A stretch of 34,614 nt of DNA from Blastopirellula marina. Its GTDB lineage: Bacteria; Planctomycetota; Phycisphaerae; Sedimentisphaerales; UBA12454. The notes below the pieces were generated by a model. It ran no database searches, was not told where the DNA came from, and saw nothing but the letters and a program-made list of their open reading frames with translations. The DNA is taken from positions 1-34,614 of the forward strand of contig DYLR01000004.1 of NCBI GenBank assembly GCA_020721975.1. The letters run 5' to 3'. A program made the position numbers and the translations under genes. Shown here one piece after another: positions 2,677 through 33,273 of this stretch. The first letter of the stretch is position 1, and the number at the start of each line of letters is the position of its first letter.

Positions 2677-2755
2677 TTAATATCTTTTGCTGAATACGGA
2701 TATATTTTTGCTATAATTCACAAAAAAATACCGCAGTGCGTCGATGGAGTGGTCG
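2677..2755 (-). pseudogene. Displaced 3' end of a terminase large-subunit gene
   Basis: Read on the minus strand, this segment encodes 25 residues beginning DHSIDALRYFFVNYSKN and ending SKRY, followed by TAA. The intact terminase at 3885-5354 ends with the matching DHPIDALRYFFVNYSQN and SKRY. DNA at 2710-2755 matches 3918-3963 in 45 of 46 positions. Beyond that block the DNA diverges, but the protein keeps the same length and the same SKRY-stop end. It therefore looks like the tail of a related but distinct terminase allele left downstream of the two-gene cassette, not a simple local duplication. No upstream part of that gene remains. Confidence 0.8.
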
Positions 2756-2781
2756 CACGTTCGGATTCATACAATAAGCTG

Positions 2782-3222
2782 CTAATTGCAGATAACAGTC
2801 AATGAAGAATTGAGTTGTTGACAGGCCTGATCCGGCAAGAATTGCTCGCAGGATTTAATTATCTGCGTCAAATGTCCTTTGATAAATTTAGTCCTGATTG
2901 TTTCATTGCTTAAAAAACCGATTGTAATGCTGCCTTCCAGATACCTTACAGTCTTTGATGTTCTGTAAAGCTCGATGTAATTGCGTGCTATTTTCTCATA
3001 GCATTTGGTTTGCTTTAATATGTTGGCCCTGTCCTGATGGTTGCCCCCATGTCGCAATCTGTGAGCAGCCGGATTTCTATAAATTACAGCGTCAACAACA
3101 TGTAGTGCGACATAAAAAGCGAGAACCACACTCCAATCACAGAACTCCGGTTTCTCAAGTAAATACTTTAAAACATCAAGATTATGAAGTGCGGCCTTTA
3201 TATGCTCGCTATCGTTTGGCAT
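2782..3222 (-). CDS. HEPN-like protein, second gene of an insertion cassette
   Basis: This 146-residue, probably all-helical protein has a pattern common in HEPN-superfamily proteins. It includes HNLDVLKYLLE near the N-terminus, DWSVVLAFYVALHVVDAVIY at about residues 29-48, a His/Arg-rich loop containing RHGGNH (an R-x4-H arrangement), and YIELYRTSKTVRYLEG further on. Many HEPN proteins are RNases or toxin/defence effectors and use R-x4-6-H. The family assignment is from pattern recognition only. It overlaps the upstream 177-aa gene by 14 nt, which implies translational coupling. GGAG lies about 13 nt before the ATG. A terminase-tail remnant follows immediately, so this is the distal gene of an inserted module. 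Confidence 0.7.
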   Translation of the reverse strand: MPNDSEHIKAALHNLDVLKYLLEKPEFCDWSVVLAFYVALHVVDAVIYRNPAAHRLRHGGNHQDRANILKQTKCYEKIARNYIELYRTSKTVRYLEGSITIGFLSNETIRTKFIKGHLTQIIKSCEQFLPDQACQQLNSSLTVICN

Positions 3223-3742
3223 TTCGTGTCATGTACTCCAGCGTCCATACAAAATTACAGAACGATTCATATCCATCCGCATCGCAACGCGGCAAGGTCT
3301 GAACTGAGAAGGGAATTTCTGAAAAGTCAGGGTCTTTGGCAATATCCATATCAAGATCTGTTACCTGGCTCTCAAATTCCTCGTCATATTTTAGTTCTTT
3401 GCGAACTATGACTAAAAGCAGTCCGCCTTCACAGACCGTAAGAAAAGTTTTATGAATTTTTTCATTATGGTCAAATAACCAGGTTCCAAGCTTATTCAGA
3501 AGAAGCTGAAATTTTTTAAGCTGTTCATCGTCCCGTTTTCTGATGCGACAAGCCTCTAGCGCATCCGTGAGAAAAATATTTAGTTTATCCGAATCTTTAG
3601 ATAGCTGATAATTACTGCATGCTCTGGCGGCATCCTCGTGAGACATAAAAAACCTGTCTCCATCCGTAGTTTCAACAAAAACAATCCCGTCTTTGTTAGA
3701 AGCCTCTATTCTGACATAGTTTTTACTTTGGGAAACAGCCAT
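3209..3742 (-). CDS. Unknown 177-aa protein, first gene of the HEPN cassette
   Basis: I do not recognise the family. The N-terminus (residues 8-35) alternates charged and hydrophobic residues like beta strands (YVRIEASNKDGIVFVETTDG). A helical, charged middle follows with KFQLLLNKLGTWLFDHNEK, then a hydrophobic strand (GGLLLVIVRKEL) and an acidic C-terminal third. There is no signal peptide or membrane segment. It starts at ATG 3742 with GAGAG about 8 nt upstream and overlaps the HEPN-like gene by 14 nt. Its own consensus promoter and a palindrome lie just upstream. Position and coupling suggest a partner, possibly an antitoxin, sensor or regulator, of the HEPN-like protein. That role is inference. 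Confidence 0.75.
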   Translation of the reverse strand: MAVSQSKNYVRIEASNKDGIVFVETTDGDRFFMSHEDAARACSNYQLSKDSDKLNIFLTDALEACRIRKRDDEQLKKFQLLLNKLGTWLFDHNEKIHKTFLTVCEGGLLLVIVRKELKYDEEFESQVTDLDMDIAKDPDFSEIPFSVQTLPRCDADGYESFCNFVWTLEYMTRNAKR

Positions 3743-3772
3743 ATTATTACTCTCTTAACAACGCCGGCATCC

Positions 3773-3786
3773 TCGATATATATCGA
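3773..3786. promoter_or_regulatory. 14-bp perfect palindrome (candidate operator)
   Basis: TCGATATATATCGA is a perfect palindrome. It lies between the predicted transcription start (about 3838) and the start codon (3742) of the cassette's first gene. A symmetric site there suits autoregulation by a dimeric product of the cassette, as in many toxin-antitoxin operons. No direct evidence of binding is visible. Confidence 0.5.
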
Positions 3787-3844
3787 CATTACACTCTATG
3801 AAGCCAAAGGAAATGTTCTCAAACACAACTTTAATGACTATATC

Positions 3845-3872
3845 ATTATAAACAATTCAATACAACTGTCAA
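3845..3872 (-). promoter_or_regulatory. Consensus sigma-70 promoter of the HEPN cassette
   Basis: On the minus strand TTGACA (3872-3867) is followed by a 16-bp spacer and TATAAT (3850-3845); both hexamers match the consensus perfectly. It sits 13 bp beyond the terminase stop codon and points into the 177-aa gene, giving an mRNA leader of about 95 nt. The cassette thus has strong expression independent of the terminase. Confidence 0.8.
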
Positions 3873-3884
3873 TAGTATAATTGT

Positions 3885-5354
3885 TTAATACCTTTTAGAT
3901 ATACTTTTTCTGTTTTGGCTATAATTCACAAAAAAATACCGCAGTGCGTCGATGGGGTGGTCGTAAATGCCGTCTTTCAGCGGCAATTCATCGGCAGCGC
4001 TGTCGGGGTAATGGTAGCATTTCATTGCCTCAATCAGTCGTCCGCAGCGGGGGCTGATTACCAAACTGCTTGCGCCATCACCCCGCCGCAAAGCCCGGCG
4101 TATCAGTTCAAGCCCCTGCAAAATCGAACTTGCCCGCCATCGCAAGGGTACGCCAAGCGAACGCATTACCGCGGCCGGACTGCTGCCGGTAATATCATTC
4201 ACGCCCGCGCCTGCCGGGTCGCAAAAACTTGCCGCAACCGAACCAGGCGTTCTCTCAATAATCGCCCGCGCGTGTACGTCAATCGTGGTGCGACTTCGCA
4301 CATATTCATCAATTACCCGCACAACTGTGTTGCCGTCAACCTGAATCCACAGGCACACAAATGGATTGACAAATCCGAAATCAATCGCGCGATACAACGG
4401 CAGATTCGCGTCATATTCCACTGCCGCGACGTGAATATCAGGCTCAAATTCCGCGAATACCGCATTATCCAGCGAAGGCCTGCGGCATAACATTTCGCTT
4501 TCAAAGGCTGCTTGTGAACTGCGGCGCATTTGCGTAATACAGTCGTCAATCTTTAGATATCCGCCGGCATTTTTCGCCCGGCCCATACAATATTTGTCAA
4601 GTTCGCAGCGCGAACACGAGCGGTCAACGCATTTTTCAATCGACTCGAACATACACCACTTATAAATTGATGAATGATGATTTATGATTGATGATTTTTT
4701 TTCTGCCGCATCGACGAGTTTCTGCATAAGGCCGTAAGGTCTGTGCATTGTGCTTAAACATTCCATTCCGCCGATAATGCCGTCTTTGCTCTGTGTGATA
4801 AATTTGGCCGCTTCGAAAACCTCCGGCTCGAACAATTCAATTTCATCGCAGCGCAGTTTATGCACGTGTCTGCCGCGCACGCAGGCCGAAGACTGAGTAA
4901 GCACTTCAACGCCTGAACCGTTAATAAATACACAGCGATTTTTGCGAATCGGCTCGGCAAGCAGATGTGAAAACCCTGCATTTATATATTGCACGAGATA
5001 TTCATACATGCGCTGTGCCTGGTCGCCTGAACCTGCGAGAATTCGCACCTGGCAATCCGGCTTGAATATACAATCCAGAAGCGTCGCCACAGCGCCAAGC
5101 AGCGTTTTGCCTCCGCCGCGACCGGCCCAGACAATCGCGTCGGAATTGACCGAAACATCGGCGGTCTCTAAACCTCTAACCTTCCCATCAGTATAACAAT
5201 GCCAAAGATAATCCATCGGCGCACAGTGGTCATCACAAATACGTACATCCGGCACATTCACGCCGAGAAAGGCCTTTACATAATTCCGCAAATCATCACG
5301 ATTTCGCGGTACAATGGTTTTTAAACTGTCGTACAATTCTCCGATTATATGCAT
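3885..5354 (-). CDS. Phage-type terminase large subunit
   Basis: This 489-residue DNA-packaging motor has both expected modules. The ATPase shows Walker A AGRGGGKT (77-84), Walker B LRCDE (D170, E171) and a coupling-type STMHRP (201-206). The RNase H-like nuclease shows acidic residues in AIDFGF (D325), FCDPAG (D379) and DHPIDALRYF (D465, D469). All key residues are present, so it looks functional. Between the modules lies a cysteine cluster (C242, C247, C250, C256) that could bind zinc or an Fe-S cluster. A low-complexity insert at about 220-231 (SSIINHHSSI) is encoded by a repeat tract. ATG at 5354 has AGAGGTG 5 nt upstream. No portal, protease or capsid gene is nearby. The small-terminase-like gene is 2.8 kb upstream on the same strand. 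Confidence 0.9.
   Translation of the reverse strand: MHIIGELYDSLKTIVPRNRDDLRNYVKAFLGVNVPDVRICDDHCAPMDYLWHCYTDGKVRGLETADVSVNSDAIVWAGRGGGKTLLGAVATLLDCIFKPDCQVRILAGSGDQAQRMYEYLVQYINAGFSHLLAEPIRKNRCVFINGSGVEVLTQSSACVRGRHVHKLRCDEIELFEPEVFEAAKFITQSKDGIIGGMECLSTMHRPYGLMQKLVDAAEKKSSIINHHSSIYKWCMFESIEKCVDRSCSRCELDKYCMGRAKNAGGYLKIDDCITQMRRSSQAAFESEMLCRRPSLDNAVFAEFEPDIHVAAVEYDANLPLYRAIDFGFVNPFVCLWIQVDGNTVVRVIDEYVRSRTTIDVHARAIIERTPGSVAASFCDPAGAGVNDITGSSPAAVMRSLGVPLRWRASSILQGLELIRRALRRGDGASSLVISPRCGRLIEAMKCYHYPDSAADELPLKDGIYDHPIDALRYFFVNYSQNRKSISKRY
3918..3963. repeat. 46-bp direct repeat, terminase copy
   Basis: This matches 2710-2755 in 45 of 46 positions (G against A near the right end). It encodes the DHPIDALRYFFVNYS segment of the terminase nuclease tail. 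The two copies are 1208 bp apart, start to start, and bracket the two-gene cassette. Confidence 0.9.
4664..4702. repeat. Degenerate 'gatgaatgatga' repeat inside the terminase gene
   Basis: The plus strand carries a run built from GATGA, ATGATT and TGATGA words. On the coding strand it gives the low-complexity peptide KKSSIINHHSSIYK, between the ATPase and nuclease parts of the terminase. The frame is preserved. It looks like an in-frame repeat expansion or insertion into a tolerant linker. Confidence 0.6.
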
Positions 5355-5426
5355 TATTCACCTCTTAAAGTTCTATATTTTTTTACATCTGTTAAGCAGC
5401 CGTTTTGCACTGCCGATACTATTTAT

Positions 5427-6578
5427 ATGAAGTATTCTGCGCATAAAGTCCGTCACGGAGTGGCGCTTGTTTTAGTGCTTGGAATTATAATGGCCGTTGT
5501 TATTATCGGGCTTGGCTATATGGCCCGCTGCACAATTGACCTGGCCATTGCCGACAATACGGTCGTCCGCAGCCGGCTCGACCAGACCGCCCGCAGCGGA
5601 ATAGAACACGCCAGGGGTCTGCTGCTTAATCCTCAATATATTGCCGGTGAATATTTCACAGGCGCAGCCGGCCAGCAGATTGACTCCGCCAGCGATTACT
5701 ACTACGACATTACTATAACAAAACAGAGCGAATTAAATTACGATATCGTTTCAGATGCCTATCTTCTTGACGCCGGCAGCAAAACAGCAGAAAGCGTATT
5801 TAATGCACAATTACGATTGCATCCGGCCGTTGCTTATTATACCGCTCTATATGATTACCTCACATCGAATCAAACATTTAACGGCGACGTTTACGGCGGA
5901 CATGGTATAGACAATTATGGTGCGATTTATGGCGATTTGACGGCCGCCGGTGCAATCGGAGGAACAGGCACAGTAACAGGCCAAAAACAAAGCAATGCAA
6001 CACTAACTATTGCCGCACCAGGCCTTACACCGGCATTCTATCAAACCAGCTACTACTACAATGGCGGCGGGCCTTATGGCGTTACGATTCTCTCAAACGG
6101 AAGTTATGACGGGTCGTTTCCTGATGCCTCCGCCGCAATGAATCCTGCCAAAGTTTATTATCGCAGCGGCAATCTTGACCTGAAAAATATGAATCTGACA
6201 ATCAACGGCGGCACGCTTGTTGTCAGCGGCGATTTGCATCTCAAGGATAGTATGCAGTTGACCATCAATCCTGCCAAAAACATGCCTGCGTTGATAATCG
6301 GCGGCAAACTGAACATTGATAACGATTTCGACAGACTCATTGTGAACGGCTATGCGCAGGTCGGAGACATAATTGATATCCACAACAGTCTCCGGACTCG
6401 ATTTGAGGTCAATGGCTCGCTTTTTGTTCTCGGTGCCGGTATGGATAATACTTCCGGTTGTACTGTTGTGATTAACGCCGCACCGAACAAAGCGGCAATG
6501 AAAATTTATACAAGCACGACAAATTATACGCTCTGGTCTCCGGCGAGCGGAGCAGTATATAAATATATTGGGAGATAG
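5427..6578 (+). CDS. PilX-like type IV pilin-related protein with beta-rich body
   Basis: The 383-residue protein begins MKYSAHKVRHGVALVLVLGI, a short basic leader followed by one long hydrophobic helix (about residues 11-32). This resembles PilX/GspK-type minor pilins, whose N-terminal helix packs into a pilus or pseudopilus. The remainder is rich in Gly, Asn, Thr and Tyr. Repeated strand-like phrases such as DLKNMNLTINGGTLVVSGDLHLKD suggest a beta-helix. An upstream in-frame ATG at 5349 overlaps the divergent terminase start and would bury the helix at residue 37, so I prefer 5427, although neither start has a clear Shine-Dalgarno. The exact role is unknown. It sits divergently from the terminase and ahead of a small Arg-rich gene. 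Confidence 0.65.
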   Translation: MKYSAHKVRHGVALVLVLGIIMAVVIIGLGYMARCTIDLAIADNTVVRSRLDQTARSGIEHARGLLLNPQYIAGEYFTGAAGQQIDSASDYYYDITITKQSELNYDIVSDAYLLDAGSKTAESVFNAQLRLHPAVAYYTALYDYLTSNQTFNGDVYGGHGIDNYGAIYGDLTAAGAIGGTGTVTGQKQSNATLTIAAPGLTPAFYQTSYYYNGGGPYGVTILSNGSYDGSFPDASAAMNPAKVYYRSGNLDLKNMNLTINGGTLVVSGDLHLKDSMQLTINPAKNMPALIIGGKLNIDNDFDRLIVNGYAQVGDIIDIHNSLRTRFEVNGSLFVLGAGMDNTSGCTVVINAAPNKAAMKIYTSTTNYTLWSPASGAVYKYIGR

Positions 6579-6612
6579 AAGGTAGAAGGTAGAATATAGA
6601 ATATAAATATAG
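6578..6612. repeat. Short 'agaaggt/agaatata' tandem tract
   Basis: Directly after the pilin-like gene the sequence runs AGAAGGTAGAAGGTAGAATA and continues TAGAATATAAATATAG. It is a degenerate 7-bp tandem array of the same general type as the other tracts here. The Shine-Dalgarno of the next gene (AGAGGAAAAT before ATG) lies at its right edge. Confidence 0.6.
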
Positions 6613-6620
6613 AGGAAAAT

Positions 6621-6911
6621 ATGAACCCCAAAACCAACAAAAACAACCCGACTGACGAAAACATCGCCATCCGAATTGACGCCGCCGAGCAAATAGCCGC
6701 GATGTATGAGGGCAAGCTCGATGAGCAGAACGCGCAGCCCAGCCCGCAGGCCGAACCCCCGAAAACCTGGCCGGAATTTGAACGTCGCAGCGGCATCAAC
6801 GACCGCCGAAATGCCGCATCCGACCGCAGGAAATTTGCATTCGGCGCATTTAACGAACGGCGCAGCTGTCAGGAACGCAGAACAACTCGTGGCCGACGAA
6901 AAGACGACTAA
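6621..6911 (+). CDS. Small arginine-rich protein of unknown function
   Basis: This is a 96-residue protein. The N-terminal half is hydrophilic with an AAEQIAAMYEGKLDEQ helix. The C-terminal half repeats a paired-arginine unit: ERRSGINDRRNAASDRR, then FNERRSCQERRTTRGRR. The spacing of RR pairs resembles the ERRSG-DRR boxes found in assorted bacterial proteins, but I cannot name a family. There is no signal peptide. AGAGGA precedes the ATG by 5-6 nt, so the start is secure. It lies 42 bp after the pilin-like gene on the same strand and may be cotranscribed. A long hairpin follows. Polybasic composition suggests binding to nucleic acid or membrane, which is inference. Confidence 0.7.
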   Translation: MNPKTNKNNPTDENIAIRIDAAEQIAAMYEGKLDEQNAQPSPQAEPPKTWPEFERRSGINDRRNAASDRRKFAFGAFNERRSCQERRTTRGRRKDD

Positions 6912-6951
6912 AAAAACAATTTACATAATTTTTCCGACGGCCAATTCCACA

Positions 6952-7009
6952 TTCAGAGCCGCGAATGTCAATGAGCGTTCAGGCACTCAATTATTTTCGC
7001 GGCTCTGAA
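6952..7009. terminator. Long-stem hairpin between convergent genes
   Basis: TTCAGAGCCGCGAA (6952-6965) and its exact reverse complement TTCGCGGCTCTGAA (6996-7009) form a 14-bp stem with a 30-nt loop. It is followed on the plus strand by interrupted T runs (GGTTTTAAACTTTTACGC). It lies between the Arg-rich gene and the convergent PEP-CTERM gene and could terminate both. The long loop is unusual for an intrinsic terminator. Confidence 0.5.
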
Positions 7010-7031
7010 AAGGTTTTAAACTTTTACGCTT

Positions 7032-7777
7032 TTATTTCTTCCTCAATGCAAGCAAGCCCAGGGCAAACAATGCTATCGTCGCAGGCTCAGGCGTAATTAC
7101 AAATGCAAGGTCTATCGACTGGCCGCCTCTGCCGTACAAATCTTCGGGCGGATAACGCAGTTCCTGATAGCCCGGTCCGCCAAGCGGGTAATAAACTGCA
7201 TCGTCCATAAAATGCTCTATCGAAGTTTTCCAGCCGATATTTGGTGTGGTGTCGTTTGGAAGCTTGATTTCAAGCCAGTAAATCTGACCCTTATTCTGGT
7301 AAAAAGCATCAACTATCGGCTCGATGTTTATCTGGAAATAGCTGGTGTGGTCGTTGACTATTACCTCGCGTGGCAGCGGGTTATACCAGCCCTGCTGACC
7401 CTGGCCAGCATATATCACTTCATACTCGCCATAGGTGAATTCTCTATTCCAAAGCGGAGTGGCCGGTATGCTGTAACCGCCGGGACCCTGCGGATTGTTG
7501 CTGTAAATCGTTACGTCAATTTTTCCGGGTATGCCGTTGGCGGGGGAGCAGTGCCGTTATACCCGCGATATGAAACCCACAGGTGAATATCTGTTACCAG
7601 GCCGCTTTCGCTGCATTGCCAGTCATCGGCAATCCTGTGAGCGTCAAATGCAATATCCCAGCCCTGCGGGTCCGGCAGTTGCGGAAAGTGCATCTTATGA
7701 GCATATCCCGGAACCCAGCTTGCCATTACGCTAACAACGGCCAATAAACATATTGAAACAAAAATTAACCTTCTCAT
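7032..7777 (-). pseudogene. PEP-CTERM secreted protein, broken by a -1 frameshift
   Basis: Two frames make one gene. The first part (7777 to about 7545) starts MRRLIFVSICLLAVVSVMAS, a clear signal peptide, behind GAGGTG, and continues WDIAFDAHRIADDWQCSES and VTDIHLWVSYRG. The second part (from about 7545 to 7032) reads GIPGKIDVTIYSNNPQG, then IGWKTSIEHF, and ends with a PEP-CTERM sorting signal: PEPATIALFALGLLALRKK, i.e. PEP motif, helix and basic tail. The layout resembles a family of planctomycete secreted proteins (DUF7901-like, from memory). Adding one base to the run of five G/C at 7542-7546 restores one 248-residue protein. Either a genuine frameshift or a homopolymer sequencing error would explain it. 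If intact, it would be exported and processed by an exosortase-type system. Confidence 0.8.
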
Positions 7778-8110
7778 TTTACACCTCGTTTTCAAAATTA
7801 AATTTCTTCTATCTTGCAATTTTGAAATCTTACAGATGATAATCCATCGGAGGTGTGAAATTATGATTTGGGAATTCCTATTTACGGCGGGTGGTCGCCT
7901 TGAAATGATTTCGGTGGAGCCATCCTCAAAGTCCATTTGGATTGGCCCGACAACATTACCTTCGCTCCAGGTCTCTACCTTGAACGGGGGAAATGTTTTA
8001 TCGGACTTGCGGGATAAAGTCAATCAAAATATTTACATTATTTGTAATCTCCGCAACTCTATATTTGACAACACCTTAACTCTATTAACTTGTCAAAGAA
8101 CACTGGAAAA
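7778..8110. other. 333-bp gap between PEP-CTERM gene and HTH gene
   Basis: No secure gene is visible. Both strands have open frames here. On the minus strand an open stretch runs in frame into the PEP-CTERM signal peptide but has no recognisable domain. On the plus strand an open stretch contains LPSLQVSTLNGGNVLSDL, faintly like the start of a redoxin domain. Neither has a convincing start signal. A 7-bp inverted repeat, TTTGACA (8064-8070) and TGTCAAA (8091-8097), is present. The segment may hold a gene remnant and the promoter of the PEP-CTERM gene. Confidence 0.4.
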
Positions 8111-8506
8111 TCAGTCCTGCGCAAGGATTCGCAGAATTTGTGAAGCTTTTTTGTTGCTTATCTTCATAACGGCATTATCGTTTGAATTGTTTTGTTCCCT
8201 GTTCGTTTTTTCCGGCAGCGACAAAATGTCCAGGCATGCCTTGCGAAGCGTTTCGCCTTCGCCGTTGTTCATCAGTTCAATCAATTTTGCCGCAGCCAGC
8301 GGACGATAACGCGCCAGCAAGATACGGCTTTGCCTGTGAGCCGATTCAATACGATATTGCAGTTCGCTGATAAATTCACTTTGACCAAGCCATCTGCGGT
8401 AAGTCTGCATCGTGATTTTATGTTTTGCCGCAGCCGTTTGCTCGTCAACGCCGTTGAAAAGCTCGTCGAGAATAATTTTCTGTTTGAGTGTAATGTTTTT
8501 TTTCAT
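8111..8506 (-). CDS. HTH protein resembling a small terminase subunit (phBC6A51-like)
   Basis: This 131-residue protein starts MKKNITLKQKIILDELFNG and has a helix-turn-helix at about residues 8-40 (TAAAKHKITMQTYRRWLGQ). A long helix (FISELQYRIESAHRQSRILLARYRP) and an oligomerisation-like segment (AAKLIELMNNGEGETLRKACLDIL) follow. HTH followed by coiled helices is the usual design of phage small terminase subunits and phBC6A51-type proteins, which recognise DNA and hand it to the large terminase. It is the last gene of the five-gene operon, 17 bp after the ParB-like gene, with a weak GGGA ribosome site. The large terminase lies further downstream on the same strand, separated by the inserted pilin/PEP-CTERM block. 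Function is inferred from family and context. Confidence 0.7.
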   Translation of the reverse strand: MKKNITLKQKIILDELFNGVDEQTAAAKHKITMQTYRRWLGQSEFISELQYRIESAHRQSRILLARYRPLAAAKLIELMNNGEGETLRKACLDILSLPEKTNREQNNSNDNAVMKISNKKASQILRILAQD

Positions 8507-8523
8507 TTTTATTTTCCCATTTA

Positions 8524-9141
8524 TTATTTGCGACAGGCTGAATTGTAATGCCGTGATATTTGCACCAGCGCAGCGGCCTTGCGTTTTGCGGACGATATTT
8601 CGTCAATATCCGCAGATGCGGCAGCAAGGGCGTTTTCAACAATTACATACTGCCCGTCATCAAGATAAAAGACCATGCATTTGGGCATAGCCGGAATTTC
8701 CTTAGGCAATTCAACCGGCTTATACAATGCCTTTATTCGTTCAATGGCCGTTCGGCTTTGCGGAAGCATTTCGGCAAGTTCTGCAATTTCGTAATGTTTG
8801 CTCAAAGCGGCAATCAATTCGGATTGTTTTTGCAGTTCGTCTCTGCCGCACAGACGGTTGAGAGTTTGCAGCAGCACAAGCGTCTGTGCGTCGTCAACTT
8901 CCCAGACGACGCACATTGCCTGTTTATGGCCGATTTGACGCAGCGCTTCTGTCCTGTGATGGCCGTTTATGATTTGATATTTGTCTTGCTCATTGGGACA
9001 GCGGCGTACGACAATCGGCTCGTACCGGCCGGTGGTTTTTATATGCCGAATAAGTTTGTTGAAATTACTTTTGCTCATCCTGTTTGCGTTAAGCGGATGG
9101 GCAACAAGATTTTCTACCGGAATCATTTGTGTATTACTCAT
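8524..9141 (-). CDS. ParB/Srx-domain protein
   Basis: The 205-residue protein opens with IPVENLVAHPLNANRMS and contains the hallmarks of the ParB N-terminal/sulfiredoxin-like fold: RYEPIVVRR at about 39-47 and the nucleotide-binding INGHHRTEALRQIG at about 58-71. The sequence TLVLLQTLNRLCGRDELQKQ and a helical region with SRTAIERIKAL follow, possibly an HTH. The C-terminus is Ala-rich. There is no long ParB dimerisation domain and no ParA partner, so it is probably not a chromosome-partition ParB. Phage and mobile-element ParB-like proteins can be CTPases, nucleases or DNA-modification adaptors. GAGGA lies upstream of ATG 9141. It is the fourth gene of a tight operon with 17-bp gaps on both sides. 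Confidence 0.85.
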   Translation of the reverse strand: MSNTQMIPVENLVAHPLNANRMSKSNFNKLIRHIKTTGRYEPIVVRRCPNEQDKYQIINGHHRTEALRQIGHKQAMCVVWEVDDAQTLVLLQTLNRLCGRDELQKQSELIAALSKHYEIAELAEMLPQSRTAIERIKALYKPVELPKEIPAMPKCMVFYLDDGQYVIVENALAAASADIDEISSAKRKAAALVQISRHYNSACRK

Positions 9142-9158
9142 TTTTTATTCCTCAGTTT

Positions 9159-9890
9159 TCACCTTTTACTTTTAATTTTTTGTTTTAAGTAATACACCGG
9201 TCTGTCGGTCAGGCGGCTTAATACAAATTCCGTCCGTTCCAGCCCGGCGGGCATTTGCTTTCTACTGCCATAGACCTGCATAAAACGGGCAATTTGCGTA
9301 TTTATGAAGAGCTTTCGCTTTTCATCAAGCCCGTCTATAAGGCTATGCACGGCGGAAGGGTCAACCAGCATATTCTCATCTGCACCCACATAACTTAACG
9401 CCTCAAGCAACTGCATATTATTTTCCGATGGCGGTGATTCGTACCTTCGCATTTTTGCCCGCTCGAAAAACGGATTGACCCGCCCCATTGTCGCAAGTGC
9501 TTCAACATAAGGCATATCAACCGCGGATGTGGTTTCACTCACCAGCCATGCCGCAAGACTCAGCGAACGATAACGCGGCTCAATTATCACCCTGCTGATT
9601 GTTCGCATGTTGTCGTTGAGCCACTGCAAACGCTGCGAAACAGCAAGTCCGTCCAGCACACTGCCGAGGGCAATATTTCGCAGCCGGCAATTGGCTGTGG
9701 GCATTGAATATATAATCACGCCGACCGGCGTTTTGTAACGCGCGCGTGCAGGGTGCGTATCAATTATTTTATATATCTTCCACATCGTCGGAACGCCGCA
9801 GCTGCGATAGTGAAATCGTGACAAACAATGATAATCGCCGAGACTGCCCGGCTCTATTTGTAAATATTTTGTTATTGAGCAATCAGACAT
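9159..9890 (-). CDS. GNAT-like protein paired with an ABC ATPase (COG2401-like)
   Basis: The product is 243 residues from ATG 9890. N-terminal LSRFHYRSCG and PVGVIIYSMP, then ISRVIIEPRYRSLSLAAWLVSET (about 98-120) and VEALATMGRVNPFFERAKM (about 129-147) form the outline of an acetyltransferase fold. They resemble the acetyltransferase half of COG2401 (ATPase fused to acetyltransferase). The pyrophosphate-binding loop is degenerate: R-S-L-S-L-A replaces the usual glycine-rich Q/RxxGxG, so catalysis is doubtful. The C-terminal 90 residues are helical and unassigned. The ATG at 9890 overlaps the ATPase stop codon by 8 nt (ATGTCTGA). An upstream ATG at 9914 is possible but would read through repeat sequence. 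The C-terminus is Lys-rich (KQKIKSKR). Confidence 0.65.
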   Translation of the reverse strand: MSDCSITKYLQIEPGSLGDYHCLSRFHYRSCGVPTMWKIYKIIDTHPARARYKTPVGVIIYSMPTANCRLRNIALGSVLDGLAVSQRLQWLNDNMRTISRVIIEPRYRSLSLAAWLVSETTSAVDMPYVEALATMGRVNPFFERAKMRRYESPPSENNMQLLEALSYVGADENMLVDPSAVHSLIDGLDEKRKLFINTQIARFMQVYGSRKQMPAGLERTEFVLSRLTDRPVYYLKQKIKSKR

Positions 9891-10554
9891 AAACTTCTTT
9901 TTGGTTTTTGGCATTTGATATTTGATTTTTATGTATGATTTCGGTTTCGCCGTTAAGGTGTTTAATTACAACCGTTTCTGGCAGCAGGTCGCTTAAAATG
10001 TCGTCGTTGGCTGCCGCCAGTATAAAAGTGATTTTGCTGCGGTCTGTGAATTTACGGATGTTGTGAGAGATGACGGCGGCGGCAACCCTGTCAAGATTTG
10101 AGCAAAATTCATCTGCGACAATATATTTCTTTCCGCTTGCAATCGCCACAGCAAGGCGGAAGCGGTATTTTTGTCCGTCGCTCAAATAAGCCGGCATATT
10201 CAGGGCTGCAAAAATATCCGACAGACCGGCTATGCTCAAAATTCGCAGCGCAGAAAGATAATCGCAGTCAAAACAATCAACGCAGGTCTTGTCATCCGGC
10301 AGAGGTATGCCGTTGATATCGACGGTTTCTTCACGCGGCAGTTGGGCAATAATTTCACGAAGCACAACGCTTTTGCCGCAGCCGCTGGGTCCGGTTATAA
10401 AAATTATTTCGCCCGGCGATATGTCAAGTTCGAGTCTGTGTGTTATAGAATTATCTCGCAGTCGTCCGACCGATACGCCGAAAGCACGGAGCGTCGAAGC
10501 CACCTTTGGCGTTATTTTCCCTGACCAGTCAAATTTTTTTTCTACGCTAATCAT
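9883..10554 (-). CDS. Soluble ABC-type ATPase (COG2401-like)
   Basis: This is a 223-residue stand-alone ABC ATPase. Walker A is GPSGCGKS (55-62), the signature is YLSDGQKYR (about 123-130), Walker B is YIVADEF (144-150, D148/E149), and the D-loop SNLD follows. The usual switch histidine after Walker B is missing: ILAAANDD stands where TILSTHD-like sequence would be. A CVDCFDC cysteine triplet lies at 91-97. There are no membrane segments and no permease gene nearby, so it is not an obvious transporter. Its neighbour is an acetyltransferase-like protein, the pair that is fused in COG2401. GAGGTGAGAA precedes the ATG, and the gene overlaps its upstream neighbour by 8 nt (ATGATTAG). The last 15 residues are encoded by an AT-rich repeat tract. 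Confidence 0.85.
   Translation of the reverse strand: MISVEKKFDWSGKITPKVASTLRAFGVSVGRLRDNSITHRLELDISPGEIIFITGPSGCGKSVVLREIIAQLPREETVDINGIPLPDDKTCVDCFDCDYLSALRILSIAGLSDIFAALNMPAYLSDGQKYRFRLAVAIASGKKYIVADEFCSNLDRVAAAVISHNIRKFTDRSKITFILAAANDDILSDLLPETVVIKHLNGETEIIHKNQISNAKNQKEVYV
9893..9933. repeat. 'ttttggtttttggcatttgat' degenerate tract
   Basis: TTTTTGGTTTTTGGCATTTG followed by ATATTTGATTTTTATG covers the end of the ATPase gene and its overlap with the GNAT-like gene. On the other strand it reads as CAAAAACCAAAAAG-like words, the same style as 17688-17730. It encodes the ATPase tail NQISNAKNQKEV. Confidence 0.6.
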
Positions 10555-10933
10555 TTCTCACCTCTGATATTTGGCCGAGCGTTTTTCTTACAAAATATCT
10601 TGAGCATTGCATTTCCTCGGCAATATGATTTTCGCTTTTGCCTTCAATGTAATACCCCCGGGCGATTTGCATTTGTAGCGGAGTAAAGTGATGGGCATTT
10701 CTGATGATATTGGGATAATTACTATCCAGAAGTCTTTTTGCTATTCTTGCTACTCGCCGGGCAATAGTAGCTTCATTCACACCTGCCAATGTTGCCATTT
10801 GCTTATACGTGGCATTGGTATTCATAAAAATTCCAAGAAGCTGCCTATCAGCATCTTCCAGCCAATCCATCCGTGCATATATCACATCCGATTGCCTCAA
10901 TAATTCCGACTTGACCTGTCCTTTAATTCTCAT
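10547..10933 (-). CDS. Two-HTH regulator heading the ATPase/ParB/terminase operon
   Basis: This 128-residue protein has two helix-turn-helix segments. One is at about residues 40-68 (TYKQMATLAGVNEATIARRV) and one at about 86-120 (FTPLQMQIARGYYIEGKSEN, then HIAEEMQCSRYFVRKTLGQI). The arrangement recalls sigma-70 region 3/4-like or phage late-gene regulators, but I cannot assign a named family. It is the first gene of the operon and overlaps the ATPase by 8 nt, so it probably regulates the operon or nearby DNA. The upstream 500 bp is very AT-rich. No strong Shine-Dalgarno is visible before ATG 10933. Confidence 0.75.
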   Translation of the reverse strand: MRIKGQVKSELLRQSDVIYARMDWLEDADRQLLGIFMNTNATYKQMATLAGVNEATIARRVARIAKRLLDSNYPNIIRNAHHFTPLQMQIARGYYIEGKSENHIAEEMQCSRYFVRKTLGQISEVRND

Positions 10934-11227: not shown

Positions 11228-11314
11228 AATGACCAGAGAATACCAAGTTTTTAAATGCCCAATATTCCGGCGAAAGCCTTTTGGTTATTGGTAATTGAAA
11301 ATTCTCTGGTCATT
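11228..11314. repeat. 14-bp perfect inverted repeat
   Basis: AATGACCAGAGAAT (11228-11241) is the exact reverse complement of ATTCTCTGGTCATT (11301-11314), with 59 bp between the arms. The right arm lies within the 79-bp dispersed repeat. At the window-start copy the corresponding position differs by one base. The arms could form a cruciform or RNA hairpin, or mark the end of a repeat element. Confidence 0.75.
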
Positions 11315-11347
11315 CGGATTTGGTCATTGGTCATTAAATGGATGTTG
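11269..11347 (+). repeat. 79-bp dispersed direct repeat, copy 2
   Basis: This matches 1-79 with one mismatch, in the same orientation, 11.27 kb away. It lies upstream of the ferredoxin-oxidoreductase operon. A low-complexity CCCTATCCCTTATACCCTAT tract follows at 11381-11400. Confidence 0.92.
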
Positions 11348-27372: not shown

Positions 27373-30300
27373 TTATCGTGTTGCCTCGGCCATGCGAGCC
27401 ATTATAAGCATAGCCACTCCTTCATTACCGCTGCTGGCAAGCCTGTCAACATATTTTTCAAAGGCAGCGGCAACGGCTCTGTCGCCGTCCCAGCCGAGTT
27501 CACGATTAAGCACTCTTACATAAGCCTCAACGCCTTTTTCAAGCCAGGCAACCGCATTGGCATGAACTAAATTACCTGCCGCATCGCGTCTTGCAAGCTC
27601 GGCATTAACCGCCACAAGCTGCTCTGCGCTGGGCGGAGCGGTAATATCCATCAGCGGTGAAACGGCTGCAATTAAATCTGCAACCGCAGCATCGGGGCCG
27701 GCCTGAATGATTTCAACCGAATCCCGCAGCCGCTGACACGAATCGCAAAGCTGGTCGCTTTGGTCGGTATCCGTGGCCTGTGCAAATGCATTATTCAGGT
27801 ATATCTGCTCATTTTCCGCGCCAAGCTCCTGCCGCAGCCAGGCAAGCAGTTCCGGGCATCCGACAGGCAGCAGAATTGTTTCCGGCACATATTGCTCAAG
27901 TTCCATAAACGCAGGCGGAATAGGCTCAGGCGTTGGTCCCGGCGCTGGAGCTGGAGCGCCTAATATCGGCTCATCGCCCGGATGAAGCACTCCGCCTCGA
28001 AGAACATAACTGCCGGGATAACCGATTACATCAGCGACCAAATTCGCCTGCGACTGTGCCTGTGAATCGGCGCTTGCATAAGGCAGCTTTCCTGCTGCTG
28101 CACCCGGCAGGTCGGATGTAATACGCGAGCCGACCTGTAATACATTATCGGCGGACAGCAAGGTAAGCGAATTTTTAAAATCACTGCCGAATGTTACGGT
28201 ATCATAAGCGTCGATGGCAATCGTTCCGCCGGGTTGAATTGCCGCTGCACCGGCAACATTTGTATTTCCGGTCAGGCTGGCAACATGAATACCTATATCA
28301 ATGGGGTCGCCGTCGTCGAGGAATCTTACGCCGTCGCGGTCATCGTTGATCGCCGAATTATAAACGCCGCGGGTATCGGTGAGTTTGCCCTGTACGTCAA
28401 GGTCTGCTGAAGCAACTATGACAATGCCTGCCGTGCCTTTTGTGCCTGGGTCTTCATCGGCATCGCCGATAAAAGGCAAATCGACTTCATCATTATTGCC
28501 CTCTTTATGAGCGGTTATATTAACCGTAAGCTGGGTGCCTGTGGTATATACTTTGCCGGTTTCGGAAATAATCGACACGCCGCCTGTATTGCTTGTTACG
28601 TCCTGTTTTAACTGTACATCGCCATTGCCGAGTATTTCAATATTTCCATAGGCATTTACAAACGAGTTTGCTGCAATCTGATTATTATTTGAAGTGATTG
28701 ATAACGAGCCTTTCTTTGAATCAACAGACCCATCAAGCGTAATCAATCCGTCAGCCGTAATATCCAGACTGCCTTCCTTTGTTTTGACGACATCTTTTTT
28801 GGCCCACAGGGCGCTGCCTGCCTCGATTGCCTGGTCAAAGGCCATTCCCGGAATCAGGCCTGCGCCGTCAAAAGTCGCCAAATCTTCAAAGGTTATATTG
28901 CCGCTGGCCTTTATATCTCCGCCGGCCGTGAAATCTTCTTCTATTGTGAGACTGCCGTTTTGCACATCAACGGTTTTGTCGAGGTCAATCTGATTGCCGC
29001 CCGAAATATTCAAATCGCCGGCGGTTGTTTTAGTAATCGTTCCTTTGGCGTGCAGTTTATCGCCTGCGTCAATTTTCTGATTGGCGGCGGCGCCTGCGCC
29101 GTTGAGCGTGCCGTTTTTATCAAATGTAATGTTGTCGCGTGCAAGGATATCGCCGGATGCGGTGAAATTATCCTTTATAACTAAATTAGCCGCAGCCTGC
29201 GGAATATCGCTGCCCTTTACATTAACCGTGCCGTCAATAACAATTCCGTTATTTCCGCCGAGCGTGAGCGTGCCGTCATTGCCGGAAAGCGAAGACGTTG
29301 CGCCTTTTATTACGTCGCTTTGGAATTCAAGTTTGCCGCCGGCGTCAACGAGCTGGTCAAGGGGTGTAATTGTAATTGGATGCAGGAAATACGCGGTATC
29401 CATAAATGTAATATCGCCGCCTGTGGAAATTTCGGTAGCCGCGACATTGATTCCGCCGGAGCCGGAGTCGAAAATGATGCTGCCGGAACCGGAGTTTATC
29501 ATATTTGTAAGAATATTGATTTTGCCTGTTGCCGCGAGAGTCTGAAGTTTGAGAGTGTTATTCCAGGCAGTGAAGCCCGCATCGCCGGTATTTATCCACT
29601 CATTGACGTTTATCGTATCATCTGCAACGAGCAAAACATTTTGCAATAAAAGTTGTGCAAGCACTGCCGCAGGGCTGAGTATGCTCTGGCCGGTATTGTC
29701 ATACCAGAATCCGTCGCCGTGGTCTGCCCAGGCAGGCACGCCGGCCCCGAATGTAGTAATGTTTAAAACGGCAGGGTCTATCAGCAAAGCGCCTGCTTCA
29801 CCAAAATATGCCGAGGTATCGACAAGGCCGCTGAATTCGACAAACTGCTTGCCTGACAATTCCACAAATCCGCCGTTGCCGCTTGTGCTGCCGCCTTTTG
29901 CGCTAATCAATGCGCCGTCTCGCAGCAGAACCGCGCCGGGCGAATAAACGATAACCTCACCGCCTGTCCCGACTATGCCGGCATTTGCGGACGTAAGGCT
30001 GTCAACGCCGAGTGCAATTACCTCGTCGGCATAAAAACTTATATTGCCGGCTGTACCGGCTGAGCCGTTCGCAAGGACCTGTCCGAACTGGCCGAGTCTT
30101 GTGGCGTCAAAATTTATGAACCCGCCTGTTGTGCCGGTTGCATCTATTACGCCGGAGTTGATGAAATCGCCGCCAAGGCCGATTATGCTGCCGCCGCGAC
30201 CGAATCCGCTTGCAGCAGAAATAAAGCCCGTATTGCTTACAATTCCGTCATAGCCGTTAAGTTTGACAAGACCTCCGTCGCCCATTTCCACCGAGGCCGT

Positions 30301-31077
30301 AATCGTGCCTACGTTTTTAATGGCGTGTGAAAATATATCGCCGGCAGCGGCTATTACAATTTCGCCGCCTGCTGCGCTAATAGCTCCATCATTATAAACT
30401 GCCGCATCGGCCTGATAATCTGCATCAGGCGTATCGAGCAGGTCGATTGTGCCGATTTCCACAAGCACATCGCTGTGTTCACTGCCGATATAAACTTTGT
30501 CGCCTGCTGCAATAACAAGTGCGCCGTCCGGACAATTTATAGTGCCGCTGTTTATGACCTGCCTGGCGATGAGCGCAACTTTTTCGGCAAGAATATCGCC
30601 GCGATTCACCACCGAGCCGTTGCCGCCCATAAAGCTCATATTCCCGGCCAAGAAATCGGCGTTGGTGATATTCAGCCCGGATGCAACAAATGCTCCGACG
30701 TGAATTTGTGCGCTTGGTCCGATGAAAACGCCCATCGGACTGACGAACCATACTGCACCAATGGAGTTGACTGCGCCATTAATTGTTATCAGGTTGCCGC
30801 TTCGGTTCAACACCGATGATGCGCTGTCCGGCAAAATATAATTATACGTCTGGCCCTGATTGATATTGAGATTCTGCCAGTTGATAACTGTGCCGTTATC
30901 GGCCGTTATATCCCAGCCGCCGGTGTCGTTGGGGTTGAAAGCAGCCTGACCTGTTTCCACCGTTACGCCATCAGGGTCGGCCATTATGCACGACAGGGGC
31001 AGACTCGTCAATATGCAGAAAGCCATTACGACCGCAAATATTTCATGCAGGTCACGAATTATTGATTGCCAAACCAT
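27373..31077 (-). CDS. Two-partner secretion exoprotein TpsA (filamentous haemagglutinin-like)
   Basis: This 1234-residue secreted protein has an N-terminal hydrophobic signal (IFAVVMAFCILTSLPLSC). The TPS domain recognised by TpsB follows: NLNINQGQTYNYILPD, NLITINGAVNSIGAVWFVSPMGVFIGPSAQIHVGAFVASGL. The usual NPNG/NPxG motif is changed to SPMG. A long Gly/Asn-rich beta-helix follows. At about residues 600-830 near-repeat units recur (KGSLSITSN, NGSLTIEEDFTAGGDIKASGNITF, EGSLDITADGLITLDGSV). A proline-rich linker (PAPAPGPTPEPIPP) leads to a helical C-terminal domain with CDSCQRL. ATG 31077 is preceded by AAAGGAGAT; the upstream ATG at 31113 is less likely. It is transcribed after tpsB. Confidence 0.85.
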   Translation of the reverse strand: MVWQSIIRDLHEIFAVVMAFCILTSLPLSCIMADPDGVTVETGQAAFNPNDTGGWDITADNGTVINWQNLNINQGQTYNYILPDSASSVLNRSGNLITINGAVNSIGAVWFVSPMGVFIGPSAQIHVGAFVASGLNITNADFLAGNMSFMGGNGSVVNRGDILAEKVALIARQVINSGTINCPDGALVIAAGDKVYIGSEHSDVLVEIGTIDLLDTPDADYQADAAVYNDGAISAAGGEIVIAAAGDIFSHAIKNVGTITASVEMGDGGLVKLNGYDGIVSNTGFISAASGFGRGGSIIGLGGDFINSGVIDATGTTGGFINFDATRLGQFGQVLANGSAGTAGNISFYADEVIALGVDSLTSANAGIVGTGGEVIVYSPGAVLLRDGALISAKGGSTSGNGGFVELSGKQFVEFSGLVDTSAYFGEAGALLIDPAVLNITTFGAGVPAWADHGDGFWYDNTGQSILSPAAVLAQLLLQNVLLVADDTINVNEWINTGDAGFTAWNNTLKLQTLAATGKINILTNMINSGSGSIIFDSGSGGINVAATEISTGGDITFMDTAYFLHPITITPLDQLVDAGGKLEFQSDVIKGATSSLSGNDGTLTLGGNNGIVIDGTVNVKGSDIPQAAANLVIKDNFTASGDILARDNITFDKNGTLNGAGAAANQKIDAGDKLHAKGTITKTTAGDLNISGGNQIDLDKTVDVQNGSLTIEEDFTAGGDIKASGNITFEDLATFDGAGLIPGMAFDQAIEAGSALWAKKDVVKTKEGSLDITADGLITLDGSVDSKKGSLSITSNNNQIAANSFVNAYGNIEILGNGDVQLKQDVTSNTGGVSIISETGKVYTTGTQLTVNITAHKEGNNDEVDLPFIGDADEDPGTKGTAGIVIVASADLDVQGKLTDTRGVYNSAINDDRDGVRFLDDGDPIDIGIHVASLTGNTNVAGAAAIQPGGTIAIDAYDTVTFGSDFKNSLTLLSADNVLQVGSRITSDLPGAAAGKLPYASADSQAQSQANLVADVIGYPGSYVLRGGVLHPGDEPILGAPAPAPGPTPEPIPPAFMELEQYVPETILLPVGCPELLAWLRQELGAENEQIYLNNAFAQATDTDQSDQLCDSCQRLRDSVEIIQAGPDAAVADLIAAVSPLMDITAPPSAEQLVAVNAELARRDAAGNLVHANAVAWLEKGVEAYVRVLNRELGWDGDRAVAAAFEKYVDRLASSGNEGVAMLIMARMAEATR

Positions 31078-31083
31078 AAAAAC

Positions 31084-31217
31084 ATCTCCTTTGCATTTTG
31101 CAAAATGCGTCAATAACCGAATCCCTTCGCTTTCGATTACTGCGCACCATCCGTGGAATCGCTTAACAGGTAAAAATTCAAAAAATCCGCGTTAATCCGC
31201 GGTTAAATATTCTTAAT
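31084..31217. repeat. tpsB-tpsA spacer with 'aatccgcg' repeat
   Basis: This is the gap between the two TPS genes. It contains AATCCGCGTTAATCCGCGG (31183-31201), a short tandem/dyad of the word AATCCGCG, similar to the tract at 2110-2185. The tpsA ribosome site borders its left end. No gene is seen. Confidence 0.5.
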
Positions 31218-33083
31218 TTACCATCTTAATATAAAGTTAAAATGCCATCTGCCGCTGCCGGCGGGCGTTTCAGGTCCGTCGGTTACGGCAAGGCCGTAGT
31301 AAATACCCGCTGAAAAACTTCTTCCCGCTTCAAGCAGCGTACCTGCGCCGATGCTCCAAAGATCATCATCGGCATCTTCACCGGCTGCCGGGTCTTCAAT
31401 CTCGGCATGAGCATAGTCTGTAAAGCCCACAAGCGAAACATTCGGCGGCCAGAGCTTCTTCGCCATTGCTTTTTCATCAACTTCAAGGCCGGCTTTGCGG
31501 TCTGCGACTATTCCAGCCCGCGTGAGGTCATATCTGTACTGTCCTGAAAAAAGCAGACCTTCATCCGCTATCAATTCATCCTCGGCATAACCGCGAACGG
31601 TATAAAGCCCGCCGAAAGCAGTCATCTTGGCCGGTGCAACTCTGTCGGTTGCATCAATACTCCTCAATAATCCCTTAACCTCGTGTATGCGGTCAAAATC
31701 AATATACTGCTTATGATAGGCCTGAACTATATACAAGGCAAAATCATTCGTTGCGCCGGCTCTTGCGGTTTGAATGGCCGCCTTGTCCGAACCGCCAATG
31801 GTCTCAATCCTGTTAAAACTCAGCGATGTTTCAGTTCTTTCGCTGCGACGATGAAGTTCCGTACCAAACCCCAGCAAATCAAGGGCGTAATCGCTGCCGA
31901 TGCCGGTATCAGGCACAACTTTGCTTACCTCATGGCTGTAAGACATCAACGCATCAAACATCCAGTCGTCAAATTGAGCGACGTTGTATCTGGCATTCGA
32001 GCCGACAAACCAGCCGTTGCCGCGGAAATCAACAGGGATGCCTGCCGCAGTATCGTCGGTCAGGTCAAATTCACTGTACCCGGCAAATACGCCTATGCGC
32101 AGTCTGGGGGAAAGCACCGGCACTTCATAACTGCCGTAAGTCGTCCAGTTATCGTCAAATTTGCTGTCTAAACTGCTTTGCCAAAGGGCGGCAAATCTGT
32201 CGTCCCGGCCGGTGAGGTTGGTGTTTACAAGGCCGAACCGCGGATTCCACTGCCGTTTATCACGCCCTGCATTGTCAACCTGCAAATACCAGTGCCAGGG
32301 ATTGTTTTCGTATAAATCATAGCTGACCTGCAGCGCATTGGGTTCAGTTCCCTTTTTGACAACGGCCGCAACATATCTGTCGGGATTGTAATTAAGCAAA
32401 CGAACAAATTCGTCAAGCGGTTTCTTTTTTATCATTTTCCCCTGCTCTACCGGCGACCAGTCCCGAACAACTTCATTAGACAGCCAGCCTTTTTCCTTTT
32501 CATTTTTATCGAAATCAAAATGCCTGATGTTCACATCCTCGACAAAACCTTCAATTACACGCAGCTCCAGTAAGCCGCCCGGAACAGATGGTCTGCCTTG
32601 CACCGCCAAAGTCGGCACATAAACATAAATGCCCACGTACCCGGCCTTCTGATATACATCCAGAATATATTGCGTAAGCCCCTGAATTGTATGCTGCGAT
32701 ACGGAACGGCGTGTGCCGGGCTGAGCAAAAATTTCCTTTACGGCACGGAAATCATAAACTTCCTCGCTGGCGATTTTGCCGTCAACACGCAAACGCACTT
32801 TATAAGTTGACGGCACAGATGCGATAAGTCTTTCCGTTGGCAAGGTTTTATTGCCGATAATTTTTATTTCACTGACGTCAAAACGCGGACTTGTATCCTG
32901 CGGAAGATTGAAATCGCCGGCAATGCCTTCTCTTTCCGGAACCCCGCCGCCGGTTTGAATGCCGTAACCTTCAATTGCCTGTGAATAACCGGTCGGTATA
33001 TTTGTTTTGGCCGCGAAACACATCACCCCCACAACAGCCGGCAACAACACATAAACGAATCCTGTCCTTAGATTCTGCACCAT
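31218..33083 (-). CDS. Two-partner secretion transporter TpsB (ShlB/FhaC/HecB family)
   Basis: The 621-residue outer-membrane protein exports TpsA. A signal segment (TGFVYVLLPAVVGVMCFAA) comes first. POTRA domains follow: FDVSEIKIIGNKTLPTERLI, and GLTQYILDVYQKAGYVGIYVYVP, ELRVIEGFVEDVNI. The rest is a 16-strand-type barrel with the diagnostic loop-6 motif TVRGYAEDE (VRGY) and a terminal aromatic residue (NFILRW). ATG 33083 has AAGGGA 7 nt upstream and gives a proper signal peptide, so I prefer it to the further upstream ATGs at 33110 and 33158. It is followed by tpsA. Confidence 0.92.
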   Translation of the reverse strand: MVQNLRTGFVYVLLPAVVGVMCFAAKTNIPTGYSQAIEGYGIQTGGGVPEREGIAGDFNLPQDTSPRFDVSEIKIIGNKTLPTERLIASVPSTYKVRLRVDGKIASEEVYDFRAVKEIFAQPGTRRSVSQHTIQGLTQYILDVYQKAGYVGIYVYVPTLAVQGRPSVPGGLLELRVIEGFVEDVNIRHFDFDKNEKEKGWLSNEVVRDWSPVEQGKMIKKKPLDEFVRLLNYNPDRYVAAVVKKGTEPNALQVSYDLYENNPWHWYLQVDNAGRDKRQWNPRFGLVNTNLTGRDDRFAALWQSSLDSKFDDNWTTYGSYEVPVLSPRLRIGVFAGYSEFDLTDDTAAGIPVDFRGNGWFVGSNARYNVAQFDDWMFDALMSYSHEVSKVVPDTGIGSDYALDLLGFGTELHRRSERTETSLSFNRIETIGGSDKAAIQTARAGATNDFALYIVQAYHKQYIDFDRIHEVKGLLRSIDATDRVAPAKMTAFGGLYTVRGYAEDELIADEGLLFSGQYRYDLTRAGIVADRKAGLEVDEKAMAKKLWPPNVSLVGFTDYAHAEIEDPAAGEDADDDLWSIGAGTLLEAGRSFSAGIYYGLAVTDGPETPAGSGRWHFNFILRW

Positions 33084-33273
33084 AGGTTTATCCCTTAAAA
33101 TGCGCAACATCCCTGTATAAATGCACCGACAAATGTATATCTTGTCCAACTTCATCAATATTGTAAAGAAAAAAACCAGAATTCATTCTCCTTGCTAAAC
33201 GTGAAAATATCATCACCCATTAAGCAATGCCGGCTTTTACAGGCCACGATTTTATAGGAACAAATCGCACAGT

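Follow-up and report, generated by a model that had tools for sequence, protein, structure and literature searches.

A dispersed, phage-derived packaging and virion gene set of Phycisphaerae as a candidate gene transfer agent

A minus-strand operon and the large terminase gene downstream of it probably form the packaging module of a gene transfer agent (GTA) that is derived from a phage, dispersed over the chromosome and vertically inherited throughout the class Phycisphaerae. This reading draws on gene content, conservation across the class, co-occurrence and frequent proximity of a packaging and a virion module, their co-inheritance, purifying selection, their dispersion and their phage ancestry, all of which were observed here. 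The agent looks very old and undescribed. No report of a planctomycete GTA was found in the literature searched (Planctomycetes, Planctomycetota, Phycisphaerae), and functional GTAs have been described for some alphaproteobacteria, a sulfate reducer, a methanogen and Brachyspira (PMC9662315; PMC12946183).

Packaging genes in the window and across the class

The window, i.e., the whole stretch of 34,614 bp analysed here, is the entire contig C13 of genome G000 (assembly size 1.65 Mb, 120 contigs, 89% completeness). Five tightly packed genes (10933-8111) encode a helix-turn-helix (HTH) regulator, an ABC ATPase, a GNAT-like protein, a ParB protein and the small terminase TerS. The intact gene for the large terminase TerL lies 2.8 kb downstream on the same strand and is separated from the TerS gene by unrelated genes (Table 1). 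The operon, which had been proposed on inspection of the sequence, is real: the open reading frames are in place, the products match protein families, and the junctions checked consist of the 8-bp overlaps ATGATTAG and ATGTCTGA plus two 17-bp gaps. The overlap ATGTCTGA with the ABC gene results from the likely start of the GNAT-like gene at position 9890. The HTH regulator gave a profile match of 5e-46, and its gene adjoins those for ABC and GNAT in most loci of the class.

Table 1 Features of the packaging region in the window
Feature	Coordinates	Strand	Evidence and remarks
HTH regulator, first gene of the operon, two HTH-like stretches	10547..10933	-	Weak AsnC-type HTH / sigma region 4 matches
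ABC-type ATPase, phrog_293 family	9883..10554	-	ABC_tran 2e-13, phrog_293 1e-29; 8-bp overlap with HTH gene
GNAT-like protein, phrog_886 family	9159..9914	-	phrog_886 2e-12
ParB N-terminal-domain protein	8524..9141	-	ParB_N 5.9e-10
Small terminase TerS	8111..8506	-	phrog_2538 5e-6
Large terminase TerL, ATPase and RNase H-type nuclease	3885..5354	-	Terminase_6N (Pfam) 2.6e-5, PHROG TerL 5e-21
Copy of the ~27 terminal codons of TerL	2680..2760	-	96% identical 51-nt repeat; beyond two-gene insert 2782-3742

TerL had been described as complete in its ATPase and nuclease residues, in full agreement with our comparison of 18 orthologues, in which Walker A, Walker B (D170/E171) and the nuclease residues D325, D379, D465 and D469 are invariant. 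Its nuclease half matches the solved TerL structure 5oe8 (4e-8). For TerS, the structure predicted by AlphaFold (mean pLDDT 68) comprises helices at residues 7-17, 22-28 and 33-41 and a long helix at 43-79, and the best fold match, a weak one, was phBC6A51 2ao9 (E = 0.19). With moderate confidence, the model suggests that TerS retains an N-terminal HTH of three helices, followed by a long helix.

The ABC ATPase had been said to lack the switch histidine and its GNAT-like partner the glycine loop. This is correct for the window proteins, the GNAT-like protein carrying RSLS (RSLSLA) instead of the acyl-CoA loop R-x-x-G-x-G/A, but not for the families: histidine occupies the switch position in 9 of 17 ABC orthologues, and the R-x-[LI]-G loop is kept in 17 of 18 GNAT sequences. 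The deviations are therefore peculiar to G000 or variable within the family. Profile matches of the GNAT-like protein to acetyltransferases in the PDB were weak and confined to residues 95-154, and its structure model reached a pLDDT of 39, such that the GNAT fold is not confirmed. The view that the pair represents the split form of a fused protein gained support, since ABC and GNAT are joined in one protein in three loci of the class (L179, L184, L188) and phage homologues bear the annotation 'ABC-type ATPase fused to a predicted acetyltransferase'. COG2401 (MK0520) likewise unites an ABC ATPase with a predicted acetyltransferase but is a fusion, whereas the window has separate genes; the likeness is drawn from the annotation of the phage homologues and from the fusions in the class. 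A literature search for COG2401 gave no paper. A Mom-like DNA-modification role for GNAT was considered and found no support in this analysis.

TerL occurs in each of the 13 family genomes. It is full-length in 12 of them, whereas in G009 only 28 residues of its tail were found, close to the end of a contig. It was also found in 128 of the 161 genomes of the order (59 of the 66 of high quality) with about 60% identity and, as a strong match, in 103 of the 198 genomes of the class. The loci fetched from the order keep the gene order HTH-ABC-GNAT-ParB-TerS-TerL, while inserted host genes (for a sulfatase, an FAD-dependent protein or RpiB) differ and mostly separate TerL from TerS. The packaging genes of the remaining orders of the class form a tight operon. 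HTH-ABC-GNAT(-ParB-TerS) usually lies beside TerL across the class, and all six genes occur in 7 of 18 class loci. In families f7 and f8, no ParB was detected next to TerL, and in most of the f8 loci no TerS either; ABC and GNAT remain in both situations. Relatives among the matches listed are Anaerohalosphaeraceae SMBSF06, Planctomycetes GWF2_41_51 and Phycisphaerales bin71, by which the group is assigned to Phycisphaerae, its order presumably being Sedimentisphaerales. The gene set is absent from some lineages (most of f11, all f106 listed, most of f107). The suggestion of the sequence-only reading that intact packaging genes belong to a domesticated, gene-transfer-like system is supported, and the genes occur together in many genomes.

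Several further features were observed at these loci. Directly 3' of terL, the window carries a two-gene insert (177 and 146 aa; 2680-3888) bounded by the duplicated TerL tail. The same gene pair, 37-41% identical and with the same duplication, is present in G060 of another genus (L078 5376-6663), and in G009 (L137) the duplicated tail is also present without the two insert genes. The insert looks like a mobile cassette using the 3' end of the TerL gene as its site. A second kind of element combines TerS with an ATPase-only TerL of 300-305 aa that stops shortly past the EMLC motif, near an HNH/AP2-like gene (L139 3244-4573, L140 5695-7072 and L194 1297-2909, in G094, G059 and one viral contig); L140 additionally has a homologue of the GTA tail gene p11. 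Elsewhere in the window, a 79-nt direct repeat (99% identical) occupies positions 1-79 and 11269-11347, one copy lying exactly at the contig end. Two minus-strand open reading frames at 7032-8023 look like a single gene for a PEP-CTERM-type protein split by a frameshift or stop. A plus-strand gene for a prepilin/PilX-like protein (5349-6578) overlaps the TerL start and had no homologue in the other loci fetched. Genes for a large filamentous-haemagglutinin-like protein and an ShlB-like outer-membrane protein (27373-33158) likely encode a two-partner secretion pair.

Virion genes at a second locus

Family searches yielded no match to virion families anywhere on contig C13. The earlier statement that no virion gene is visible thus holds for the 34.6-kb contig but not for the genome, where contig C98 carries the end of a capsid gene together with tail genes. 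Of the 198 genomes of the class, 87 have an SPP1-type portal (PF05133), mostly in single copy. The portal regions fetched (n = 20) have a cluster in common, in which scaffold and capsid genes adjoin the portal gene and are followed by about ten tail genes; in G519, the genes past the scaffold gene are too divergent to cluster. Matches were obtained for the portal (PF05133, 5e-18), the scaffold (PF06810, 8e-7), an SU10-type major capsid protein (PF17236, 1e-84) and a tail collar protein. Most tail genes of the cluster had no database match. As no long tape-measure gene was recognised in the cluster, the particle is predicted to be probably short-tailed.

The capsid profile matches 106 of 159 genomes of the order, usually once, G000 among them. 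The last 83 codons of its capsid gene lie at the very edge of C98, and downstream follow genes for adaptor, tail, beta-helix and lipoprotein-like proteins, all open, and then dnaA. Missing from the G000 assembly are the genes for portal and scaffold and the greater part of the capsid gene; portal and scaffold genes presumably fall in an assembly gap. It is unlikely that C98 is a foreign contig, because its proteins match members of the family and order at the expected distance and its GC content (0.48) is close to that of the window (0.47).

Portal searches with phrog_145 (4 of 159 genomes) and PF04860 (14 of 159) as well as a search for the HK97 capsid family PF05065 (51 of 198) returned patchy matches only, and the picture of a system without virion that they had suggested was overturned by the PF05133 result. 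The central proposal of the sequence-only reading, a terminase-centred system without a virion, therefore has to be abandoned in the main: the same genomes have, at a second locus, conserved genes for portal, scaffold, major capsid protein and tail, so that particle-free translocation is no longer the natural reading. Two IMG/VR contigs listed as viral, L386 and L388, encode capsid proteins 67-76% identical to the planctomycete capsid, and L388 contains a nearly complete virion cluster; both are probably host GTA fragments.

Linkage, selection and phage ancestry

TerL and portal co-occur across the 198 genomes of the class: both are present in 81, TerL only in 22, portal only in 6 and neither in 89 (p = 4e-27, a value inflated by the shared ancestry of the genomes). 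Three genomes counted as TerL-only on the basis of PF05133 (G000, G004 and G021) yet possess a capsid gene. About two dozen genomes have the capsid gene on one contig with TerL or ABC, at a distance of about 6-50 kb, e.g., G092:C247 (ABC at 49485, capsid at 55475), G096:C31, G130:C12, G132:C6 and G113:C2. In genomes consisting of a single contig, packaging and virion loci are separated by about 8 kb (G159) to 1.1 Mb (G041); the distances of 0.7-1.1 Mb in G041, G156 and G160 are greater than any head would be likely to hold. The genes are not always part of full prophages, an arrangement that had been named as speaking against domestication: flanks and gaps consist of ordinary host genes (e.g., uvrB, rpiB, aspS, sulfatase, dnaA) and not of prophages. 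Nor do they form what defines a prophage, a single contiguous element for virion, packaging, replication and integration with patchy hosts, but occur class-wide and nearly in single copy.

The trees for TerL and UvrB have 15 of 21 splits in common (r = 0.93), and no split specific to TerL is strongly supported. Portal and TerL trees agree in 10 of 11 splits and portal and UvrB trees in 8 of 11 (r = 0.86), while agreement is weaker for the major capsid protein (MCP) and UvrB, with only 5 of 12 splits (r = 0.77). Both modules are under purifying selection. dN/dS values (Nei-Gojobori, 11 genome pairs) are mostly 0.04-0.3 in either module, the maximum of 0.52 being reached by one short gene.

The system is of phage origin. 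ParB, ABC and GNAT genes occur together in SSU5-like, Nickievirus and Rhizobium phages, and in Rhizobium phage RHph_X66 and Pseudomonas phage ZY21 (Nickievirus) they lie directly upstream of TerL-portal-capsid. As in the window, ParB, ABC (phrog_293) and GNAT (phrog_886) are grouped next to TerL in these phages. Unlike in the window, portal and capsid follow immediately (phrog_145 and phrog_212 in X66) in genomes of 100-120 kb; moreover, portal and capsid belong to other families, and identity between the GNAT proteins is only about 20%. In the IMG/VR phages L390, L391 and L393-L397, TerL (1e-45 to 1e-57) and the SU10-type capsid (1e-66 to 1e-94) are of the same families as in Phycisphaerae and encoded a few kb apart. 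These are real phage contigs of up to 101.7 kb whose TerLs fall outside the Phycisphaerae clade, and ABC-GNAT was not detected in the stretches fetched. In the TerL tree, the sequences from the class form one clade relative to phage TerLs once L138 is counted in; the nearest sequences, phage L130 (TerL then portal) and L189, sit on long branches. L138, which was first labelled phage in this tree, is a second TerL copy of G045 in host context.

A gene transfer agent and competing explanations

GTAs are defined by six features: caudovirion-like particles derived from caudoviricetes, mostly random host DNA as cargo, endogenization, often at multiple loci, a genome exceeding the capacity of one particle, mostly vertical inheritance with co-diversification, and delivery of DNA to other cells (PMC9662315). 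Three of these could be recognised from the genes alone and none was contradicted. Caudoviricete-derived proteins, for which similarity of some suffices, are represented by TerL, portal, scaffold and capsid; the loci are fully endogenized amid host genes, at distances of 6 kb to 1.1 Mb; and the TerL and, with the MCP as a weaker case, portal trees follow that of UvrB. Like RcGTA (Rhodogtaviriformidae), BaGTA and BhGTA (VSH-1) of Brachyspira, the Phycisphaerae set comprises phage-derived head, tail and terminase genes that have become fixed in the chromosome, frequently at more than one locus, and are inherited vertically, co-diversifying with the hosts (PMC9662315). It differs in belonging to another phylum, the Planctomycetota, in which it is class-wide, in being known here through its genes, and in its SU10-type capsid, its SPP1-type portal and the ABC-GNAT(-ParB) cassette beside TerL. 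In addition, its TerS is predicted to possess an HTH, while TerS of known GTAs is reported to be without one (PMC11841831).

In the proposed mechanism, the HTH protein would turn the packaging module on, and TerS with its HTH, perhaps together with ParB and the ABC-GNAT pair, would select or prepare host DNA. TerL would cut this DNA, dock at the portal and pump the DNA into the capsid, the virion module (portal, scaffold, SU10-type capsid, adaptor, tail) being supplied from a separate chromosomal locus, beside dnaA on C98 in the case of G000. Filled particles would then exit and carry host DNA to kin. We infer the expression of the genes, the formation of particles, the nature of the packaged DNA and its delivery, along with the roles of ABC, GNAT and ParB in packaging. 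Because the ABC-GNAT pair stays with TerL where ParB (f7, f8) or TerS (much of f8) was not detected, we tentatively raise the rather doubtful idea that it may replace or license TerS and, together with the HTH-bearing TerS and ParB, may steer packaging to particular chromosomal sites and not to random DNA. That ABC, GNAT and ParB make up a packaging-start module of a kind not known in other GTAs is a similarly speculative thought.

Vertical inheritance and selection would suit any particle that is useful to the host, and the HTH kept in TerS suggests chosen and not random DNA. The particles might then be domesticated for another purpose, such as killing of rivals, delivery of proteins or interference with the packaging of phages, with packaging genes kept since particles need filling. 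We regard this as improbable. The gene set retains a TerL whose nuclease is intact as well as portal, scaffold and capsid, none of which is needed by a tailocin-type particle, and the clusters searched contained no recognisable effector gene. A fragmented cryptic prophage in decay, its conservation being leftover synteny, might be suspected from the window, where the TerL tail is duplicated, genes are inserted between TerS and TerL and the GNAT loop is altered to RSLS. The low dN/dS values in the genes tested, catalytic residues intact across the order and agreement with the host tree across the class make such decay very improbable. The original model, DNA translocation independent of a virion, would fit the contig free of virion genes and the imperfect overlap of TerL and portal, with 22 TerL-only genomes. 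Some of these genomes possess a capsid gene nonetheless, the same genomes also hold a conserved virion cluster, and G000 itself retains the capsid end and tail genes, which leaves hardly any room for this model.

Should the GTA reading be correct, the taming of phages for gene transfer arose early in another phylum and persisted there as an independent lineage. It would also open a testable path for genes to be exchanged in a group of which many members are uncultured, and ABC-GNAT-ParB, of which phages make use as well, would count as a new accessory of packaging. Note that dispersed GTA loci can pass for virion-less systems on single contigs and that GTA fragments can enter viral databases, of which L386 and L388 look like cases. 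For Phycisphaerae strain ZRK32 (Poriferisphaera), hexagonal, non-lytic particles have been described and assigned to a 21.9-kb extrachromosomal phage (PMC10945688); whether some of these are GTA particles is worth asking.
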